Source: Neoarius graeffei (Eukaryota > Chordata > Actinopteri > Siluriformes > Ariidae). From it: DNA of 64,000 bases. The notes beneath the pieces are model-generated. The model did not search any database. It was not told the DNA's origin and saw nothing but the letters and a program-made list of their open reading frames with translations. Both the position numbers and the translations under genes were made by a program. Of this stretch, positions 10,083 to 43,300 are shown one piece after another. The stretch spans positions 60,524,200-60,588,199 of the forward strand of contig NC_083581.1 of assembly GCF_027579695.1 (NCBI RefSeq), given 5' to 3'. Position 1 is the stretch's first letter. Every line of letters starts with the position of its first letter.

Positions 10083-10211
10083 CCAACAAACACGCATTGA
10101 TATATTTCCATTATGTGATTGGTTTTGCTTTGCTGAATGACACAGTATCAGTGACATACATTAAGTCTATAGGATATATGCATACATACGCTCATTATAT
10201 ATATATATATA

Positions 10212-10517
10212 TCTGGGTCATTCTAGAATTTGAGATAAACCTTTTGTAATTTTCTACAAAAGTAATATTTACTAAATCAGTTTTGAACAGTAATGCAAAT
10301 GATGACAAACTTTCACCAATTTATCCATAAAATATTAACTAAATGACTCCTCCCATTACTGGCTGCCTTTGACTCCTGATTCATCCATTCAACTCGAATA
10401 AACATGAAGTGATTCAGTAACAATCTGGTTTTTGGAGCTTATTTTATTAACTGTTATGAAATCACTTGCATAGAAAGTCTATTTTCTGTATGTGAAATTT
10501 CAGTAATATATATACAC

Positions 10518-10575
<58 letters not shown>

Positions 10576-10885
10576 GGTCATTCTAGAATTCGGGATCCAG
10601 TCTTTGAGATAAACCTTTTGTAATCTTCCACAAAAGTAATATTTACTGAATCAGTTTTGAACAGTAATGCAAATGATGACAAACTTTCACCAATTTATCC
10701 ATAAAATATTAACTAAATGACTCCTCCCGTTACTGGCTGCCTTTGACTCCTGATTCATCCATTCAACTCGAATAAACATGAAGTGATTCTGTCTAACAAT
10801 CTGGTTTTTTGGAGCTTATTTTATTAACTGTTATGAAATCAATTGCATAGAAAGTCTATTTTCTGTATGTGAAATTTCAGTTTAT
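10212..10885. repeat. 360-bp unit, two tandem copies with GT/AT microsatellite
   Basis: GGGTCATTCTAGAATT recurs exactly 360 bases apart (10215 and 10575), and the two units are nearly identical through the GTGAAATTTCAG end. A (GT)n(AT)n tract sits between them and another GT run follows the second. Confidence 0.85.
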
Positions 10886-10933
10886 ACAGTGTGTGTGTGT
10901 GTGTGTGTATATATTATCCGTCACAATGTTCTT

Positions 10934-12510
10934 GTTAACTCTGTTATAACTCTTCTAAAACCACGTAAAAGCCACAAAGGCATTTTATAACACTCTTGAC
11001 ACCTGCACCCAGTGATGTCACTTCCTCTAGCGGGAAACTTCAGAAAGGCACTGAGGTATGTTGTGTTTCTTCTCCCATTAATTTGTATAAAATGTTGAGG
11101 ATACACCAACAGTAGGTTAATTATTCGTCAAATCTGTTATTGTGATATTGGAGTGAATCTCTCACTCGTTTTAAAAAAAAAAAAAAAACAATAATGTGAC
11201 CAAAATCCATAACATTGTTTTTATACATGTCGTTTGGTAGCTAGTTTGAGGTTAGCATGTGGAGTTAAGACACAAAATGGTGGAAAATGTTGACTCTGTT
11301 ATCATCAGTTCTGTTAATGGATAGCCAGTTTAACGATAACAGAGTTGACGGTGACTAACAGAGTCAGATGTAACCGACTGCATTGAAGCATGCTACATTG
11401 TTTGTTTTGAGTTTCTTACAGATTCTGGGTCATTTAATGTAAGGGCTACATGTGTGGTATACCATTCCAGGTTAAAGAAATTGAATAATTTCTATTCTAG
11501 GTAGATGAAGCTGTCAGCAGCAGAAAGGCAACGGCAGTACCGGGCACGGCGAGATGCCGACCCTGTAAAAAGGGCAGAAAATTTACAAAAGGACAGAAAT
11601 AGGTGGCACAAGAAGAAAAATGCAGGGCAAACAAGCGGAGTCGCTGATCTGGATGAAAGGGAGAAAAGGTACAAGCGTAGGTATTGGAGAGAGGCGCAGC
11701 AGAGGTGCAGAGCAAGAAGGCAGCAGTTTGTGGAGATGACACCACTGCAAATGCCAGAGCGACTCCCTCTAGTTCCATCAACAGTGAGGCTCCATCAGAT
11801 GATCACTTTCACACCAGGAAAGATCATCTACAGAGACATCTGTTGTCTCTGCTCAATCAAGCAGATTCTGGAGTATGGATGTCGTCATAACACACACATG
11901 TTTGAATTTGAAGTGGAACCCACGCTTTCTGCCACTGCTGAATCAGATACTCAGCCCATCCTTTCTGACATCACAGATCAACAAGAACAGACAATTGAAG
12001 AAATAAATTGGGAAAGCAAAGATGTCATTGGACAGTGGTGTGTCGTCAAATACGATGATGATATTTATCCTGGGACAATTGTCGAGGTCAATGAGACCCA
12101 TGCAAAGGTCACGTGCATGCATAAAGTGGGGGTAAATCGCTTCTATTGGCCAGTGCGTGAGGATACGCTGTGGTATCTTTTTGATGATATCCTCAGATTC
12201 ATCCCGCAACCAACCAGAGTGACGTCACGACATGTCGAAATTAACAAGAAAATATGGGCAGAAATTGCTAGTGAGTGATTGGCATCAAGGCTAGGCCAGA
12301 TCAGTAATGCATGATACAATGTACACTTCAGGTTTACTTGTTATAATTAAATGTTTGGGGTTGTTTTTAGAATGGTTGGAATACATTTGAAATGGTTTAA
12401 AATGGTTAAAGTACATTAACACAGTTTTGAAAATTATTGAGTCAAGATATGGGTGGTCAATTCTGTTAGTCATATTAACTCTGTATGCCATCAGTGTCAA
12501 TTCTGTTTAA
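10934..12510. repeat. Recurring TTAACTCTGTTA-type motifs around the basic-domain ORF
   Basis: Upstream of the ORF: TTAACTCTGTTAT near 10935, GACTCTGTTATC near 11291, TTCTGTTAATGG near 11310, GATAACAGAGTTGAC near 11335 and CTAACAGAGTCAG near 11356. Downstream: TTCTGTTAG near 12459, TTAACTCTGTATG near 12476 and CAATTCTGTTT near 12500. Both orientations occur, as in subterminal transposase-binding repeats. Confidence 0.5.
11505..12278 (+). CDS. Unnamed basic-domain protein with C-terminal SH3-like module; probably transposon-derived
   Basis: An uninterrupted 257-codon frame starting MKLSAAERQRQYRARRDADP. Residues 1-75 are highly basic with two repeats of the pattern (AERQRxYRARRDADP and EREKRYKRRYWREAQ). 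Residues about 105-135 hold a Cys/His cluster (CCLCSIKQ, then C and H). Residues 168-257 form a compact module starting GQWCVVKYDDDIYPGTIVEV and running through MHKVGVNRFYWPVREDTLWY. From memory, unnamed multicopy proteins of fish and cnidarians join the same N and C parts around a longer middle with transposase-like acidic residues; if so, this copy has lost the middle. Splice-acceptor-like ctattctag lies just before the ATG. Copies of a TTAACTCTGTTA-like motif lie on both sides. Function unknown; a second, broken relative is at 35264-35653. Confidence 0.6.
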   Translation: MKLSAAERQRQYRARRDADPVKRAENLQKDRNRWHKKKNAGQTSGVADLDEREKRYKRRYWREAQQRCRARRQQFVEMTPLQMPERLPLVPSTVRLHQMITFTPGKIIYRDICCLCSIKQILEYGCRHNTHMFEFEVEPTLSATAESDTQPILSDITDQQEQTIEEINWESKDVIGQWCVVKYDDDIYPGTIVEVNETHAKVTCMHKVGVNRFYWPVREDTLWYLFDDILRFIPQPTRVTSRHVEINKKIWAEIASE

Positions 12511-12986
12511 GATTTGCTTTTAAAATGATACATTTGAAAATAAGAACCTATCAGATGTTGTTACAACGAATACTATTTTTACAACATGAAATTAAAAGAA
12601 ATCATTCATTTATTAGGTTTTTTTTTTTTTAAATGCACACCATCTTGGGAACTCGTCAGATGAATGGTTTTGTTTGTTACTTCAAAACAAAAGGTCTCAA
12701 TCTTATCAGATTTAAAGTTGCTTTAGTGAATATAGAGACAAAAGTTGTCTTGGGGAAACAGGATTTAAAATTGATTACGTTTGCTAAATATACATATTTT
12801 ACTGAATTCGTCTCCAACAGAGGTGACAGATTTTTCTGTTCTTTTGAATAAATACTTAGCCTTACAGGTGTAAGGTTTGAAAATAGTTGTAGTGTTAAAT
12901 TTGAAGTGTGCTGTCTGACAATAAAAAAAAAAATGTTTAATGGAAAAAAATCCAATTTTGTTTTCTTTCAACACTTGAAATGTACC

Positions 12987-13048
<62 letters not shown>
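12987..13048. repeat. (CTAT)n microsatellite
   Basis: About fifteen uninterrupted CTAT units. Confidence 0.95.
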
Positions 13049-13049
<1 letters not shown>

Positions 13050-19519: not shown

Positions 19520-21122
19520 CAACCCTGATTCCAAAAAAGTTGGGACAAGTACAAATTGTAAATAAATATGGAATGCAATGATGTGAAAGTTTCAAAATTC
19601 CATATTTTATTCAGAATAGAACATAGATGATATATCAAATGTTTAAACTGAGAAAATGTATCATTCAAAGAGAAAAATTAGGTGATTTTAAATTTCATGG
19701 CAACAACACATCTCAAAAAAGTTGGGACAAGGCCATGTTTACCACTGTGAGACATCCCCTTTTCTCTTTACAACAGTCTGTAAACGTCTGGGGACTGAGG
19801 AGACAAGTTGCTCAAGTTTAGGAATAGGAATGTTAACCCATTCTTGTCTAATGTAGGATTCTAGTTGCTCAACTGTCTTAGGTCTTTTTTGTCGTATCTT
19901 CCGTTTTATGATGGGCCAAATATTTTCTATGGGTGAAAGATCTGGACTGCAGGCTGGCCAGTTCAGTACCCGGACCCTTCTTCTACGCAGCCATGATGCT
20001 GCAATTGATGCAGTATGTGGTTTGGCATCGTCATGTTGGAAAATGCAAGGTCTTCCCTGAAAGAGACGTTGGCTGGATGGGAGCATATGTTGCTCTAGAA
20101 CCTGGATATACCTTTCAGCATTGATGGTGTCTTTCCAGATGTGTAAGCTGCCCATGCCACACGCACTAATGCAACCCCATACCATCAGAGATGCAGGCTT
20201 CTGAACTGAGTGCTGATAACAACTTGGGTCGTCCTTCTCCTCTTTAGTCCAAATGACACGGCGTCCCTGATTTCCATAAAGAACTTCACATTTTGATTTG
20301 TCTGACCACAGAACAGTTTTCCACTTTGCCACAGTCCATTTTAAATGAGCCTTGGCCCAGAGAAGACGTCTGCGCTTCTGGATCATGTTTAGATACGGCT
20401 TCTTCTTTGAACTATAGAGTTTTAGCTGGCAACGGCGGATGGCACGGTGAATTGTGTTCACAGATAATGTTCTCTGGAAATATTCCTGAGCCCATTTTGT
20501 GATTTCCAATACAGAAGCATGCCTGTATGTGATGCAGTGCCGTCTAAGGGCCCGAAGATCACGGGCACCCAGTATGGTTTTCCGGCCTTGACCCTTACGC
20601 ACAGAGATTCTTCCAGATTCTCTGAATCTTTTGATGATATTATGCACTGTAGATGATATGTTCAAACTCTTTGCAATTTTACACTGTTGAACTCTTTTCT
20701 GATATTGCTCCACTATTTGTCGGCGCAGAATTAGGGGGATTGGTGATCCTCTTCCCATCTTTACTTCTGAGAGCCGCTGCCACTCCAAGATGCTCTTTTT
20801 ATACTCAGTCATGTTAATGACCTATTGCCAATTGACCTAATGAGTTGCAATTTGGTCCTCCAGCTGTTCCTTTTTTGTACCTTTTAACTTTTCTAGCCTC
20901 TTATTGCCCCGTCCCAACTTTTTTGAGATATGTGTTGCTGTCATGAAATTTCAAATGAGCCAATATTTAGCATGAAATTTCAAAATGTCTCACTTTCGAC
21001 ATTTGATATGTTGTCTATGTTCTATTGTGAATACAATATCAGTTTTTGAGATTTGTAAATTATTGCATTCCGTTTTGATTTACAATTTGTACTTTGTCCC
21101 AACTTTTTTGGAATCGGGGTTG
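19520..21122 (-). mobile_element. Tc1-like transposon, close to intact
   Basis: Terminal repeats CAACCCTGATTCCAAAAAAG and inverse (CTTTTTTGGAATCGGGGTTG), each beside TA, 1603 bp. It carries one uninterrupted transposase frame. Two further copies of the same family lie at 50441-52243 and 56856-58452 on the other strand. Confidence 0.92.
19739..20812 (-). CDS. Tc1-family DD34E transposase
   Basis: 357 codons starting MTEYKKSILEWQRLSEVKMG; the family start may be the later Met of MGRGSPIPL. Residues about 20-135 form the paired-type HTH (QIVEQYQKRVQQCKIAKSLN), followed by a basic stretch. The catalytic Asp are in LWSDKSKC and FQHDDAKPH; the Glu is in DLSPIENIW with 34 residues between second Asp and Glu, the Tc1 spacing. 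Small lesions: ISSTVHN lacks one Ser present in the 57-kb copy, and WSDESKFE has become WSDKSKCE. The triad is present; activity is not shown. Normal role: cut-and-paste at TA sites. Confidence 0.9.
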   Translation of the reverse strand: MTEYKKSILEWQRLSEVKMGRGSPIPLILRRQIVEQYQKRVQQCKIAKSLNISSTVHNIIKRFRESGRISVRKGQGRKTILGARDLRALRRHCITYRHASVLEITKWAQEYFQRTLSVNTIHRAIRRCQLKLYSSKKKPYLNMIQKRRRLLWAKAHLKWTVAKWKTVLWSDKSKCEVLYGNQGRRVIWTKEEKDDPSCYQHSVQKPASLMVWGCISACGMGSLHIWKDTINAERYIQVLEQHMLPSSQRLFQGRPCIFQHDDAKPHTASIAASWLRRRRVRVLNWPACSPDLSPIENIWPIIKRKIRQKRPKTVEQLESYIRQEWVNIPIPKLEQLVSSVPRRLQTVVKRKGDVSQW

Positions 21123-23033: not shown

Positions 23034-24600
23034 TCATCTCATCTCATTATCTCTAGCCGCTTTATCCTGTTCTACAGGGTTGCAGGCAAGCTGGAGCCTA
23101 TCCCAGCTGACTACGTGCGAAAGGCGGGGTACACCCTGGACAAGTCGCCAGGTCATCACAGGGCTGACACATAGACACAGACAACCATTCACACTCACAT
23201 TCACACCTACGGTCAATTTAGAGTCACCAGTTAACCTAACCTGCATGTCTTTGGACTGTGGGGGAAACCGGAGCACCCGGAGGAAACCCACGCGGACATG
23301 GGGAGAACATGCAAACTCCGCACAGAAAGGCCCTCGCCGGCCCCGGGGCTCGAACCCGGACCTTCTTGCTGTGAGGCGACAGCGCTAACCACTACACCAC
23401 CGTGCCACCCGCCTTTTACTTAAGTTCATCTCATCTCATCTCATTATCTCTAGCCGCTTTATCCTTCTACAGGGTCGCAGGCAAGCTGGAGCCTATCCCA
23501 GCTGACTACGTGCGAAAGGCGGGGTACACCCTGGACAAGTCGCCAGGTCATCACAGGGCTGACACATAGACACAGACAACCATTCACACTCACATTCACA
23601 CCTACGGTCAATTTAGAGTCACCAGTTAACCTAACCTGCATGTCTTTGGACTGTGGGGGAAACCGGAGCACCCGGAGGAAACCCACGCGGACATGGGGAG
23701 AACATGCAAACTCCGCACAGAAAGGCCCTCGCCGGCCCCGGGGCTCGAACCCGGACCTTCTTGCTGTGAGGCGACAGCGCTAACCACTACACCACCGTGC
23801 CACCCGCCTTTTACTTAAGTTCATCTCATCTCATCTCATTATCTCTAGCCGCTTTATCCTTCTACAGGGTCGCAGGCAAGCTGGAGCCTATCCCAGCTGA
23901 CTACGGGCGAAAGGCGGGGTACACCCTGGACAAGTCGCCAGGTCATCACAGGGCTGACACATAGACACAGACAACCATTCACACTCACATTCACACCTAC
24001 GGTCAATTTAGAGTCACCAGTTAACCTAACCTGCATGTCTTTGGACTGTGGGGGAAACCGGAGCACCCGGAGGAAACCCACGCGGACATGGGGAGAACAT
24101 GCAAACTCCGCACAGAAAGGCCCTCGCCGGCCCCGGGGCTCGAACCCGGACCTTCTTGCTGTGAGGCGACAGCGCTAACCACTACACCACCGTGCCACCC
24201 GCCTTTTACTTAAGTTCATCTCATCTCATCTCATTATCTCTAGCCGCTTTATCCTTCTACAGGGTCGCAGGCAAGCTGGAGCCTATCCCAGCTGACTACG
24301 GGCGAAAGGCGGGGTACACCCTGGACAAGTCGCCAGGTCATCACAGGGCTGACACATAGACACAGACAACCATTCACACTCACACCTATGGTCAATTTAG
24401 AGTCACCAGTTAACCTAACCTGCATGTCTTTGGACTGTGGGGGAAACCGGAGCACCCGGAGGAAACCCACGCGGACAGGGGGAGAACATGCAAACTCCGC
24501 ACAGAAAGGCCCTCGCCGGCCCCGGGGCTCGAGCCCAGACCTTCTTGCTGTGAGGCGACAGCGTTAACCACTACACCACCATGCCACCCGCCTTTTACTT
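23034..24600 (-). repeat. Four tandem V-SINE units, about 395-bp period
   Basis: GCCTTTTACTTAAGTT recurs at 23411, 23806, 24201 and 24590 (spacings 395, 395, 389); a parent GCTTTTACTTAAGTT is at about 23020. Each unit is one SINE plus its target duplication. Units 1 and 2 share CTACGTGCGAAAGG where units 3 and 4 have CTACGGGCGAAAGG, so duplication went in steps. It sits inside the LINE 3' UTR. Confidence 0.93.
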
Positions 24601-24731
24601 AAGTTATTGAACTTATTTAAATTTATTTTATTTTTATTTATTCTTTTTTCAGACGGTTTTATCTTCTATTTTTAGACATGTTTACTTCTCTGATTCAGGA
24701 GATTGGTAGCAAATTTGAATTTCCCTCTGGG

Positions 24732-31328: not shown

Positions 31329-34300
31329 AGTTATTATTTTTTTTATTTTATTTTGTTTCCTTTTGTTTTTCCTCATTAGGTCGCTGTGCGAGCTTGCTTT
31401 CTAGGATTTGTCTTCGGATGTGGCTTGAGCATAAGTTTTGCAAACACGACATGGACACAGTTTGGCTGGTATATGAACTCAAGTTTCTGCATCTCAGTAT
31501 TAAATGAAGATTGAATCACACTTTTTTGAAATCAGGAACGGTCAGCAGTATGCCTTTCCCTAAGTCATGTCTAAATCGTAGTGTTGCCTTTCTGCAGGTA
31601 CATGTGTTCACTGGCATTCTTCCACTACTCTGAATACCTGGTCACAGCCGTCATCAACCCTCGCAGTCTGTCTCTAGACTCCTTCCTACTCAACCACAGT
31701 GTTGAATACACTGTAGCAGCAATCTCTTCCTGGATGGAGTTTACTGTGGAAAAACTGCTTGTTCCAGGTCTGTTCAGTTGTTTTCATCTGAAAGATTTGC
31801 TTTAGTGCTTTTATAACAGACAGACAGATATCAGAGGTCATGTTCACAGCTGCAACAGACGGGGGGCAAAATTCAAGGAAAGACCAACTTGGTGACGGGA
31901 TAATTTTTTTTTTTTTTAAAGGTCCCACCATATAACAAAATTAATGTGACATTAAGCTTTTAATTTGAGTGTCGGCGTCTCAAGAGTATTGCCGGGATTA
32001 CGGAGTTATTTCAGGTTGCGGTTGCCTCTCCTGTTAAGGCTAGTACCAGTTAAAATTGAAGCTTTAATAACTCGCAGGCTCTCACTGGAAAAATGGAGCT
32101 TTGCAGTATAGTTTAATGGAAAATATCAATGGCCTGTGGGTCACGTTCTATCAAACGATAAATAACGTCTGTTAATTCACAATACACTGGCTGCCAAAAA
32201 AAAAGAAAAAAAAAAGGTTGTGCACACTAATATTTTGTTGGACTGCCTTTAGCATTGATTATGGCGCACCTTCACTGTGCCATTGTTTCAGCAACCTTAT
32301 GCAATGTCGCAGCATTAATTTCCATCCAAAGTTGCATTAGATTTTTGCTGATATCTTGTCTTGACCACTGGAAAATCAAATCACTCATGGTCCCTGAACT
32401 ACTCTTTCACAATGTGAGCTCTAATTTTATGCCTGTGCCATCAAGGAAGAAAAAAATCCATTGATGTGAAAACCTGGTCATTCAGTGCTTTCAGGTCATC
32501 AGCTGACTTCATTTTATTGCCACGTAATGTTGCTGCATCAAGACCTGACCAATTGAAGCAACACACGATCATAACACTGCCTCCAGAGGCTTGAACATTC
32601 GCCACTATGCATGATGGATGCATCGGTTCATGCGCGTCCCTTCTTACCCTGATGCGCCCATCGCTCTGGAACAGGGTAAATTTGGACCCATCAGACCACG
32701 TGACCTTTTTCCATTGCTCCAGAGTCCAATCTTTATGCTCCCTAACAAATTGAAGCCTTTTCTTCCTATTACCCACTTTTTAGTGAGGCTTTCTTATGGC
32801 CACCCAGCCTTTCAGTCTCAATCTTGTGAGTTCTCGTCACATTGTGCATGTGGAAATGCTCTTACTGTCACTATTAAACATAGCTGTGAGTTCTACTGTC
32901 ATTTTTTTTTTTAATGATTGGACTTCAAGTGTTTAAGGGCGTATTCACACCTACGTTGTTTGGTCCGGATCAAACGAACTAAATTTACCTTGGTCCGGAC
33001 CTTTTGGGTTGGTCTGAATACAAACCACCGAACTCTGGTCCGGACCAAACAAGCGGACCAAGACCGAGCTGCAAGGTCGGACTCGGTCCGGACCAAAGGA
33101 ACCCTGGTGCGGACCTTTTGGAGGTGTGAAAGCAGACCGGACCTAATCCGACAATTTTGCTTTTTTTGTACCTCGGGAGCTTCCGTCGTTTGTCGAGCAT
33201 TATGGGAAACAGAGTCTTGACACTCCACCGCAAAGTGCAAACACTGTTTCGGTTGTCAAGGGAACCTTACAACAGTCGTTCAGTCATTCAGACCAGTGGT
33301 AGGCTAGACTACAGAGTACAAAAAATGAGTAGGGGGCAAACGTGGGCCGAGGAAGAAACGCGTACCCTTGTGGATATATGGGCAAATGTCCACATATCTG
33401 AGCTTTTGGAGAGAACACACAAAAATGCTGACGTGTTTGCTGTATTCAGTGAGACAATGAAGGAGAAGGGGTTCACGCGCTCCCCAGAACAGCGCTTTGT
33501 GCGCGTGTCGTCTCTGACCAATAGCTGAACGACCTCAGGGCGCGTGGCTTTGTTGACAGATTCTGGTCCGCTTACTAAAATGTACAGTGTGAAAGCGAAC
33601 CGCACCAAAATGAAAAAATAAAAAAAACATTTGGTTCGGACCAAAGCAAGTGAACTATCGAACTATCCTGGTCCGAATACACCCTAAGTGTTCTGTCATC
33701 ACGGTGTCTCAGGATTTTTTCCGACAACATTTCTTCTACAAAGCTGATGGCAGTTCACCACTATCCTTCCAGATTTTAATCACGTTTGAAAGTTCTTAAC
33801 CCGATTTCAGTAATCTCCTTAGTAGTTTTCCTTTGCTTGATGCAGGACAATAATTTCACCCTTCCGAAACACGGTAACGTCTTTTCCATGACCACGGGAT
33901 ACGTCTTCCGACATGACTGTATAAGAAATGAGAAGCTACTCACTGCATCAGTTAGGGTTTAAAGTGCATATCCTGGACCAAATTAGTTTTTTTTTTTTCT
34001 TTTTAATATGAAAGTATGTCCCTTTACACACTCATCCAGAAGGGTAATTTTGCACAAGGCCATCTGTCTACAGCAGAAAAAAATAAAATAACAAAACGCG
34101 TCCGGAAAAATCCCAAGGGAGTCTGGAGCCAGATTCGTGACATCACCTGCGGAAGCGCCAGCAGGCTGAGAGAGCTTGTACGGTTTCAGTGCACAGCCTC
34201 TGTAGACCAAGTTTAGCAGCTAGCGATTTTGCATTGAAATATGGAATTGTCACCTGAGCGCAATGTGGGAAACAATGAGTACTAATCCCATCAAGGTTGG

Positions 34301-40300: not shown

Positions 40301-43300
40301 ACAGTCATGGCAGTAGATCAACCATGCATTAACGAGGCCTAACATGATGGTTTGCCAGAAGAGGTGGAGGTACCACCTCCATGACCTCATGTGGTACTTG
40401 TACCTTGCAACACACATGCATCAAGGAGGTCTATCCCCTCCCATGAATGTGTTGTACTCCTTCACAATGTGCGGCCTGTTGACCTCCACAAATGCTTTGT
40501 CTGCTTTGCTTCAGCATCAAGCTTTGTCCTGAGGCTCAGTTGCATAGTAGGATGAGATCAGGGTAACAGATTTTGTTGTCATACCACTTCACAATGACCA
40601 TACTTCCCCTTTCTCCACCCTGGCATCAACAGATCCTCTGCCTCTCTTGGCAAGACTTTTGTCATCCGGCAGATTCTACCATAACAGAGGCCAGTTAAGT
40701 CCCATCTCCTTAAATTGCTGAATTGATTATTTTGATCATTCTATTAAGTTTTTCTAGTAGCATTTGGGGTCTTGGACATTCACAGTAAATTTTAGGACAG
40801 TAGTCCTGGTAACTAATTAATTAATAAAAGCCTGACATGACAGACATGCTAAATGACAATAGAAACACATCGGTTTCTATCATCAAAATCTGACAGACAA
40901 AATAACGTCTACCATCATATTCTGACAGACACTCTAGATGACAATAGCAACAAAACTGTTTCTTACATTATTAATCTGACAAATTTAGTAATAATATTAA
41001 ATACCTCATCACTAGAACCAAATAATAAAATAAAATATTGAAATAAAGAGAATTTATTTTCAAAATTGAAATATCAACAATAATTGTCAGAACAGTGACG
41101 ATAGACACGACTGTGTCACTTTCGCGGGGAAATAACACATTGAAATGGCCTGTCGGCTGAAAGGGTCGCAAGTGGCTCTGATTTATCTCAACTTACGATA
41201 GTTTTCCTCCAGAAAAATGTAAATATGAATGCACAAATATATTCTCAATGTTTCTATCGTCAAAAATTTCTATCGTCAGGATAGCTGACTGAAAATCTTG
41301 CCTTGATTTATTTGATGAAATCTAGCTGTCAGAACTCCAAGTCTTGCCCGGAAGTAAATGTCTGCTGTCTCAAAAATCATGCGCAGTAGAATTTCCTCTT
41401 TGCGTCAGTCAACATGTGCGTGGTGAGGGCTTGAATTTTGCTATCGTCAGGTGCATTTGACTGACAGACTGATGATAGCATTTTTTAAAAATAACTGTGG
41501 GCTTCTCTCGTGAACGAAATAGTTTTTTCACTGTTAATCTATTTCAACTCTATCTGTTGACACCCAAAAATGATAAAGCCTGCTTCCACACGATAACTAC
41601 CAAAGATCCATAATGGCTGAGTCTATCGTCAGGTCATCTGACAGAAATTCACTGACGATAGCAAAAGGGATAATGAAAGTGATTTTTAAAATGGGAGTTA
41701 TGTCTGTCAGATATGTCAAAGAAATAGAACTTTATTCTTTATTTTATTGATATACTCAGTGTATTTTTAAATGACGTGCTGTTTTAGAAGACCAAATACC
41801 ATATTTTCAATCTTGAAAATATTACCTCACTGAAAAAAGGACAAGAAAAATTTCTTATTTTGTGGGCAAGTGATTAATGGATCCAGTTACGGTAGAATCT
41901 GCCATCCTCAAGCATACAACCAGCCAAGCGATTGCTACGGAGTGTTCCTACAAAGTAGATCTGTTGCTCAAGAAGCTTGAGAACCAGTGGTGCTGAGGAA
42001 AAAAAAATTGTCTGCAAAGACTTTGTAGTTTTGGTTTGATGGGAGAGTTTCACACAGCTTGACCACAACGTCACCTCCCATGCCCAGTATGTTTTTTTTT
42101 TTTTTTTTCTTCTCCTCTCCCCCCTCCCAGTGCCACCTTCATAAACCACAAAATCACAGAGGATTCCTGAGGATGAGCAGCAGGCCCAAATTTTCAGTCC
42201 CCATGGGTGGGGTTTGCCCTTCACATACTGCCTTATTGGGCTGCGTTCTGAACACTGTAGCATTTAGCCATACTACAAAAAAATTAATAGAATTACATTG
42301 AATTAGGAGCACCGTAAAATCGTGTTTGTTTTACTTACAGATATTCAAAAATTGTTTTGTAACCTATATTATTAATAATTTTATAAATTTGCTATATTTG
42401 TTTAAATGTGCTTTGAATTGAACATTTTTCTTATTGTGACAAATACGTCACACAATATTTTCCACGACTATGTTAAGGTTAAATGCCCGATGTGACATCC
42501 ATGTTACCACAATGTTGTCGTAACTTGTTTTAGATCAATTTCTTCAGGAAATGTTGTCAGAACATGTTAAATGTAATATTTGACATCTTATTTAAGTATC
42601 AGAATTGTTAAATCGGTTGAAACTTGCCTTTAGTCACCAAAAAATAAGATGTTTGAAATGAGATGATTTGGTCAGGTGTGGTTGCCCTGCACACGGCCAT
42701 CTTGAAAATGGTGTCATGGGTATTCAAATTCAGAGTGTCACGTGACTGCACCAGGAAGTTACGAACATGTCACTTTGGGGCCTAATGAGGTAAAGTCAAG
42801 GATAAAGCTGTGTGAAAGTTTGCAGGACATTTAAAGTCGTGGTGACACCTGTGTCACGGTGGGTTCTTACTCGCTGGCCTCTTTATTAGGAACACCCATA
42901 CACCTGCTCTTTTATGCAGTTCTCTAATCAGCCAATCCCTGGACAGCAGCACGACGCATAAAATCATGCAGAAACAAATCAAGAGCTTCGGTTAATGTTC
43001 ACTTCAAACACCAGAACGGGAACAATTGTGATCTCAAAGTGTGACTTTCACTGTGGCATGGGTGTTGGTTTGAGCCAGATCGACTGGTTTGAGTATTTCA
43101 GAAACTGCTGATCTCCTGGGGTTTTCACACGCAACAGTCTAGAGTTTACACAGAATGGTGCGAAAAACAAAAACCACTGAGTGAGCAACAGTTCTGTGGG
43201 TGGAAACAAACGCCTGGATACGAGAGGGTCAGAAGAAAATGGCCAGATTTGGTTCAAGCTGTTATGTAAATCATAACTCTTTACAACCACGGTGAGCAGA

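Follow-up and report, generated by a model that had tools for sequence, protein, structure and literature searches.

Within the window, by which we mean the whole 64,000-nucleotide stretch of Neoarius graeffei DNA analyzed here, an open reading frame (ORF) of 257 codons stands among short, related motifs, and the locus raises the question of whether it is a mobile gene, the remnant of one, or a gene adopted by its host. A sequence-only reading took it for a mobile gene with three possible identities (an internally deleted member of a transposon family, a domesticated gene, or the DNA-binding partner of an unknown element), and suggested, among other checks, a count of genomic copies, an alignment of the flanks for ends and target duplications, and a dN/dS test. 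Following these leads, we conclude that the window copy is very probably a non-autonomous, internally deleted DNA transposon of a cut-and-paste-like kind, in which N-terminal and C-terminal parts of a longer protein are fused in frame.

The mobile setting is borne out, as the ORF sits within a DNA transposon copy with the following layout.

10575..12987, + strand: whole transposon copy, 2,413 bp, right tip missing; placed by alignment to an 852-bp miniature and by the ends of relatives
10575..10594, + strand: left terminal inverted repeat, GGGTCATTCTAGAATTCGGG; same start in the miniature copies
10215..10574, + strand: second, tandem occurrence of the left end, starting with the same GGGTCATTCTAGAATT
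11368..12967, + strand: internal segment absent from the 852-bp miniature class, from the miniature alignment
12968..12987, + strand: inner portion of the right terminal repeat, matching the right end of the miniature at 95% across 20 bp

The left end is doubled in tandem (10215 and 10575, ~360 bp apart) within a 91% repeat of 10196-10542 and 10556-10914. On the right, the last ~18 bp of the terminal repeat are absent from the window copy, and a (CTAT)n microsatellite at 12987-13049 starts where the repeat should go on. Positions 1-818 of the 852-bp miniature (locus L008, 1050-1901) align to window 10575-11367 and positions 815-834 to 12968-12987; the miniature ends in GGGTCATTCTAGAATTCGGGGTACATTTCA on the left and an imperfect inverse of GGGTCATTCTAGAATTCGGGGTACATTTCA on the right. 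The two flanks of the ORF show no inverted repeat beyond what shuffled sequence gives (72/500).

Aligning the flanks of relatives brought out both inverted ends and 4-bp target duplications. Ends related to the window's left repeat, ~26 bp long, are inverted at both tips of six larger copies of related subfamilies, which were chosen because both tips matched, and all six carry perfect 4-bp duplications (AATG, AGTT, ATAT, ATAT, AGAC, and ATAT). Ten miniature copies include four with exact 4-bp duplications and five more that are one base off; in five further miniature copies, none is exact and four are one base off. A search of the 2.34-Gb genome with the ORF protein returned at least 192 matches, which speaks against a single-copy syntenic gene without repeat ends, and the many dispersed copies found in the genome scan are what a DNA transposon with terminal inverted repeats should show.

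The ORF itself is composed of a few recognizable parts.

11505..12278, + strand: ORF read as a core-less transposase, 257 aa plus stop
11505..11732, + strand: N-terminal basic region, aa 1-76, with 25 K/R and 10 D/E
11745..11755, + strand: deletion junction at about codon 82/83, from DNA similarity to the core-bearing copy on C1 and from the post-core alignment
11835..11897, + strand: Cys/His cluster, aa 111-131, read from the sequence
12021..12209, + strand: possible Tudor/SH3-like module, aa 173-235, from a low-confidence model (pLDDT 50)
11056..11500, + strand: possible 5' leader intron, predicted from a donor-like GAG/GTATGT and an acceptor-like TTCTATTCTAG

Its ATG sits immediately 3' of a stop and all 257 codons are open, exceeding the longest stop-free run (197 codons) across 60 order-1 Markov simulations of the window; the intact frame reported earlier is thereby confirmed. 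The accompanying statement that coding sequence elsewhere is almost entirely broken needs qualifying: a Tc1-like transposase frame of 360 aa (DDE_3) is open at 19739-20821, so the remaining coding sequence is not wholly broken. The structure model of the full-length ORF is poor (pLDDT 41); helices are predicted for the N-terminal basic region, likewise in a poor model, and the best fold matches of the low-confidence model of aa 173-235 are Tudor domains, without significance. The Cys/His cluster is partly common to core-bearing relatives.

Longer relatives reveal what the ORF is missing. In L042, which is read as two frames (127 aa at the N-terminus, then 679 aa), the N-terminal basic region matches that of the ORF, 523 residues precede the post-core part, and the C-terminus is again ORF-like. 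L043 has a 556-aa frame with core and C-terminus and a short N-terminal match upstream. Core frames were obtained from nine of the 14 loci tried and share three acidic blocks: HxDFxEN in 7/7 frames that cover the region, SDGPxTQY in 6/6, and GKGxxDG in 7/7, this last block being preceded by E in six and by K in one. The HxDFxEN, SDGP, and ExxHGKG motifs plausibly represent a DDE/D triad. They are absent from the window ORF, where the N-terminus joins the post-core part directly, and we infer that the missing segment was catalytic. Because longer relatives hold this core with its conserved acidic motifs, the option of an internally deleted member fits.

Two copies bear on the junction. The nearest core-bearing relative, on C1, has 11751-12285 and 12457-12984 in common with the window. 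DNA similarity to this copy starts at 11751, and the post-core protein alignment of the window ORF starts near aa 82-83. In the C1 copy, ~68 core residues lie directly upstream of the C-terminus, after which come the 3' motifs and flanking DNA as far as 12984. Its motif form is that of the window. It is incomplete, and 4 kb of its upstream sequence contains no N-terminus. The C24 copy shares the junction of the window ORF, its main pieces being 88-90% identical in DNA, and is broken by insertions and stops such that its coding matches fall in pieces; within the 5.5 kb read there is no motif (2 mismatches) and no terminal repeat (4 mismatches). At the DNA level, window 11368-12300 occurs at only three genomic places, the window included, and no copy was found that has the N-terminus, the core, and exactly the window's ends.

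We propose that an internal deletion took the presumed catalytic core of a transposase-like gene (~520 residues in L042, the one relative measured) and thereby put the N-terminal basic region in frame with what follows the core, namely the Cys/His region and the C-terminal module. The window copy retains the left terminal repeat and the subterminal 12-mers, and further internal deletions in the family produced miniature elements without the ORF. The large protein would be the transposase of the family, binding the 12-mers through its basic N-terminus.

These 12-mers are distributed on both sides of the ORF.

10935..10946, + strand: subterminal motif, exact TTAACTCTGTTA
11128..11139, + strand: subterminal motif, 2 mismatches
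11290..11301, + strand: subterminal motif, 1 mismatch
11305..11316, + strand: subterminal motif, 3 mismatches
11337..11348, - strand: subterminal motif, 1 mismatch
11356..11367, - strand: subterminal motif, 2 mismatches
12457..12508, + strand: 3' cluster of three motifs, at 12457 and 12475 with 2 mismatches and at 12497 with 3

Seven of the 12 window matches to TTAACTCTGTTA at up to 2 mismatches fall in 10900-12520, where the density elsewhere in the window would predict 0.13, and 300 Markov copies of that region contain at most three. When any 12-mer may serve as the seed, none of 100 simulations reaches seven matches; the same control on the real window finds five of 136 tiles that do, four of which belong to three other repeat clusters and one to the element's own tandem left end. 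Across the window, the motif is not enriched at 3 mismatches (101 versus 90.5 expected), nor is its 11-mer form at 2 mismatches (26 versus 25.8 expected), and the signal is therefore one of local clustering. The clustering described by the sequence-only reading stands, while its count of at least eight motifs per side does not: at up to 3 mismatches, 10900-12520 holds 13 matches, seven before the ORF and six after.

Like motifs, in subfamily-specific forms, also flank a number of the relatives examined. Downstream of the gene in the C1 relative, a similar three-motif cluster occupies the corresponding position. The form is TCAACTGTGTTA in the L013/L018/L025 group, TCAACTCTGTTA in the window copy and L015, TCAACACTGTTA or TCAACCCTGTTA in the L028/L032/L038 group, and GTAACTCAGTTA in some members of the L020 group. 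Within the stretch examined, neither motif nor ends of the window kind occur at several other loci of the protein family. Shared descent accounts for part of this agreement between motif form and subfamily. Several like 12-mers in both orientations within one element fit predicted binding sites.

The window also harbors repeats of other kinds. At 32958-33635, eight TCCGGACCAAAG-like palindromic motif copies surround an open Myb/SANT frame (33130-33528) that matches PF13837 (E 1.8e-9), and the region is possibly what remains of a Harbinger-type accessory gene together with repeats belonging to it. Nine TTTCTATCGTCA-like motif copies, both strands counted, occur in 800 bp at 40854-41653, perhaps as subterminal repeats of another element. 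A 395-bp unit repeated four times in tandem at 98% (23034-24605) reads like a dispersed repeat with frames that recur in the window.

Is the fused protein of the window copy under selection? With up to four relatives as outgroups per site, its branch carries 15 nonsynonymous and 3 synonymous changes, and the C24 branch 7 and 4. On these small numbers, the window branch agrees with an absence of constraint: the ratio is as expected from a neutral nonsynonymous share of 0.79 and would have P 7e-5 were dN/dS 0.15. The window ORF and the C24 copy differ with dN/dS 0.68 over 222 codons. Deeper comparisons give 0.15 (L013, 82 codons) and 0.11 (L014, 77 codons) at dS >1.6, which is saturated; the C-terminus was probably under past constraint, presumably within active transposases. 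The window copy looks neutral, on small numbers, and given its lost right tip it is probably a relic that is still open by chance.

The same kind of deletion recurs throughout the family. A search with ORF aa 1-80 gave 150 matches, and the best 30, window included, comprise 14 core-less copies, 3 with a core, and 13 with neither, as judged within ~1.5 kb. Joints differ among the core-less copies. L050, L051, and L064 are 98.5-99.4% identical to the core-bearing L057 over ~500 bp, so these core-less copies are recent.

To count frames, 41 pairs of N and C parts were chosen by eye from the listed matches of the two protein searches (C part within ~700 nt; the window's C-part start entered manually), and 31 are in frame by coordinates. 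The same is true of 13 of 18 junction types, or 12 by a strict reading of J8, which is in frame by coordinates and shifted inside with stops (P 0.0009-0.004 versus one third); type labels of pairs without a sequence reading rest on spacing alone. Adding types that were read apart (J2, J3, and the C20:11.57 Mb row in frame; L029 and L089 out of frame) gives 15 or 16 of 23 (P 0.0004-0.002), and a small sample found via the N-terminus only gives five of seven (J1, J2, J3, J4, and J7 in; J8 and L089 out; P 0.045). The J9-like C22:1.30 Mb row, in frame with 2 stops (L052), was excluded from the census. In frame does not equal intact, as several fusions contain stops. Within-family dN/dS is 0.10 for L050 versus L064, on 7 changes, and 0.34-1.28 for others, with one family undefined.

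Core-less in-frame fusions have arisen repeatedly, by comparison of their junctions. The excess of in-frame junctions, combined with mixed dN/dS, at most suggests selection favoring the fusion proteins. Separately, among the listed core-less pairs, eight with a common spacing type lie at C2:117.80-126.33 Mb, and their coordinates put every one in frame, which may reflect local spread or a gene cluster; L049, the one pair of this stretch that was read, has one internal stop.

It is quite possible, if somewhat short of probable, that all of this is mere debris, in which random internal deletions left proteins without a role and the frames are open because the copies are young. The neutral look of the window branch is consistent with such an origin, as are the J4 and J7 copies, which differ by few changes with no clear constraint, and the five of 18 junction types that are out of frame by coordinates, joined by L029 and L089 by sequence. 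An in-frame share above one third in the 18 types, the 23 types, and the small sample argues against it.

We tentatively raise the possibility that the core-less protein, if expressed, binds the 12-mers without cutting and damps transposition in the manner of the P-element KP protein; it would occupy the 12-mer sites or join the transposase, lowering cutting. A broader version, that the lineage repeatedly deletes its own core in frame and spreads the two-part proteins, which arose independently about a dozen times and are kept by selection because they act as brakes or help in targeting, is rather doubtful. If true, it would amount to a recurrent, self-made, KP-like control layer within one vertebrate genome.

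A helper or accessory function, in which core-less proteins are a second useful transposon product for targeting or as a complex partner, is unlikely. Harbinger elements carry a Myb-like partner, and both the many in-frame fusions with differing joints, some of them amplified, and the low L050/L064 ratio on 7 changes point in this direction. The other within-family ratios, however, are higher or undefined, and the core-less protein is a deletion product rather than a separate gene.

Domestication as a DNA-binding, chromatin-reading protein retained by the fish is very unlikely. In its favor, the frame is intact while that of the C24 copy is not, and a stop would arise from ~5% of single substitutions. 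Purifying selection, however, is not seen: the 15:3 changes on the window branch are as expected without selection, which makes a conserved host gene improbable, dN/dS against the C24 copy is 0.68, and the element's ends still frame the ORF.

The internally deleted transposon is also favored by the miniature copies. The 5' flank at 11000-11366 occurs at 39 other places with 86-89% identity (40 scored of 1368 candidates). The miniature census, in which counts are lower bounds, scored 40 places among 1761 first-look candidates and listed 49 matching pieces. Counting the query itself, 28 of these 40 places span 98% or more of the 852-bp element. The deletion joint of this class, 11367/12968, has TCA common to both sides. 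A second class retains window 12842-12987 beside the right end, and 3/3 copies read go directly from ~11338 to ~12842, so the 3' flank of the ORF is native to the element. Both classes are therefore internal deletions of a window-like element and the ORF block is no foreign insert. That a miniature element acquired the block by a separate insertion, as its three DNA-level places beside many miniature copies could be taken to imply, is therefore extremely improbable, given the part of its 3' end kept beside the same right tip in the second class, the same order of parts in the core-bearing C1 copy, and the position of the 3' motif cluster inside the block.

One genome thus presents many parallel core deletions of one transposase-like family. 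This makes it testable whether transposase fragments with DNA-binding parts are debris or repeatedly selected regulators. Frames of this kind are listed as uncharacterized fish proteins, and such orphan frames can be deletion products of a transposase-like gene without a Pfam match.

Finally, we compared the family with databases and known systems. Neither the ORF nor its parts passed a curated cut-off in Pfam, PHROGs, NCBIfam, or PDB sequences (best E 0.032); the core-bearing L042 and L043 have no match in Pfam, L042 has none in PDB sequences (best E 1.6), and Rfam has none within the window. Searches of viral contigs, prokaryote genomes, phages, and plasmids yielded no ORF relatives. Three pattern matches to the ORF were attributed to chance by tblastn (best E 0.075). 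In the literature searched, which lies outside most subscription papers and the repeat libraries, the peptide strings looked for do not occur and no published account was recognized as this family.

Several described transposons share part of its features. In Sola2-type amoebozoan elements (PMC3627910), target duplications are 4 bp long and AT-rich, ATAT being an example, and a putative transposase of 888 aa is encoded by one of them; the window family likewise combines 4-bp duplications, ATAT included, with a large transposase-like protein. However, three of the six duplications here (AGTT, AGAC, and AATG) are not AT-only, and the Sola2-type terminal repeats in that account are 12-21 bp as opposed to ~26 bp. 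With their length of 4 bp and ATAT among them, the duplications agree with Sola2 as described there, a candidate superfamily for this family. In hAT elements such as Tgf2 (PMC4890040), both ends carry many short subterminal repeats, and the zinc finger part of the transposase binds the ends. The short subterminal repeats are shared with the window family, whereas hAT duplications are 8 bp rather than 4 bp and L042 and L043 lack a Pfam match. Kolobok and the T2-MITEs of Xenopus form a vertebrate transposase family (PMC6004289) with predominant miniature copies, as in the window family; they differ in their TTAA target and AGGRR tip, compared with GGGTCATTCTA tips and ATAT-like targets here.

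A further comparison is with the Drosophila P element and its KP-type internally deleted elements. Small P elements often can encode repressors, such as the 207-aa KP protein, and PMC7776569 describes how internal deletion yields a shortened protein while subterminal repeats and internal sites for transposase binding are present. The window family resembles them in its deletion product and subterminal repeats, with the 12-mers as predicted binding sites. P-like elements have 8-bp duplications and a THAP domain, in contrast to 4 bp and no THAP match here, and relative to KP the window ORF additionally keeps the C-terminus; by analogy, a KP-like repressor role of its protein is plausible. Overall, internally deleted elements with a leftover ORF are a known kind, to which the window copy belongs, and the repeated in-frame loss of the core in one vertebrate genome is a variant of it.
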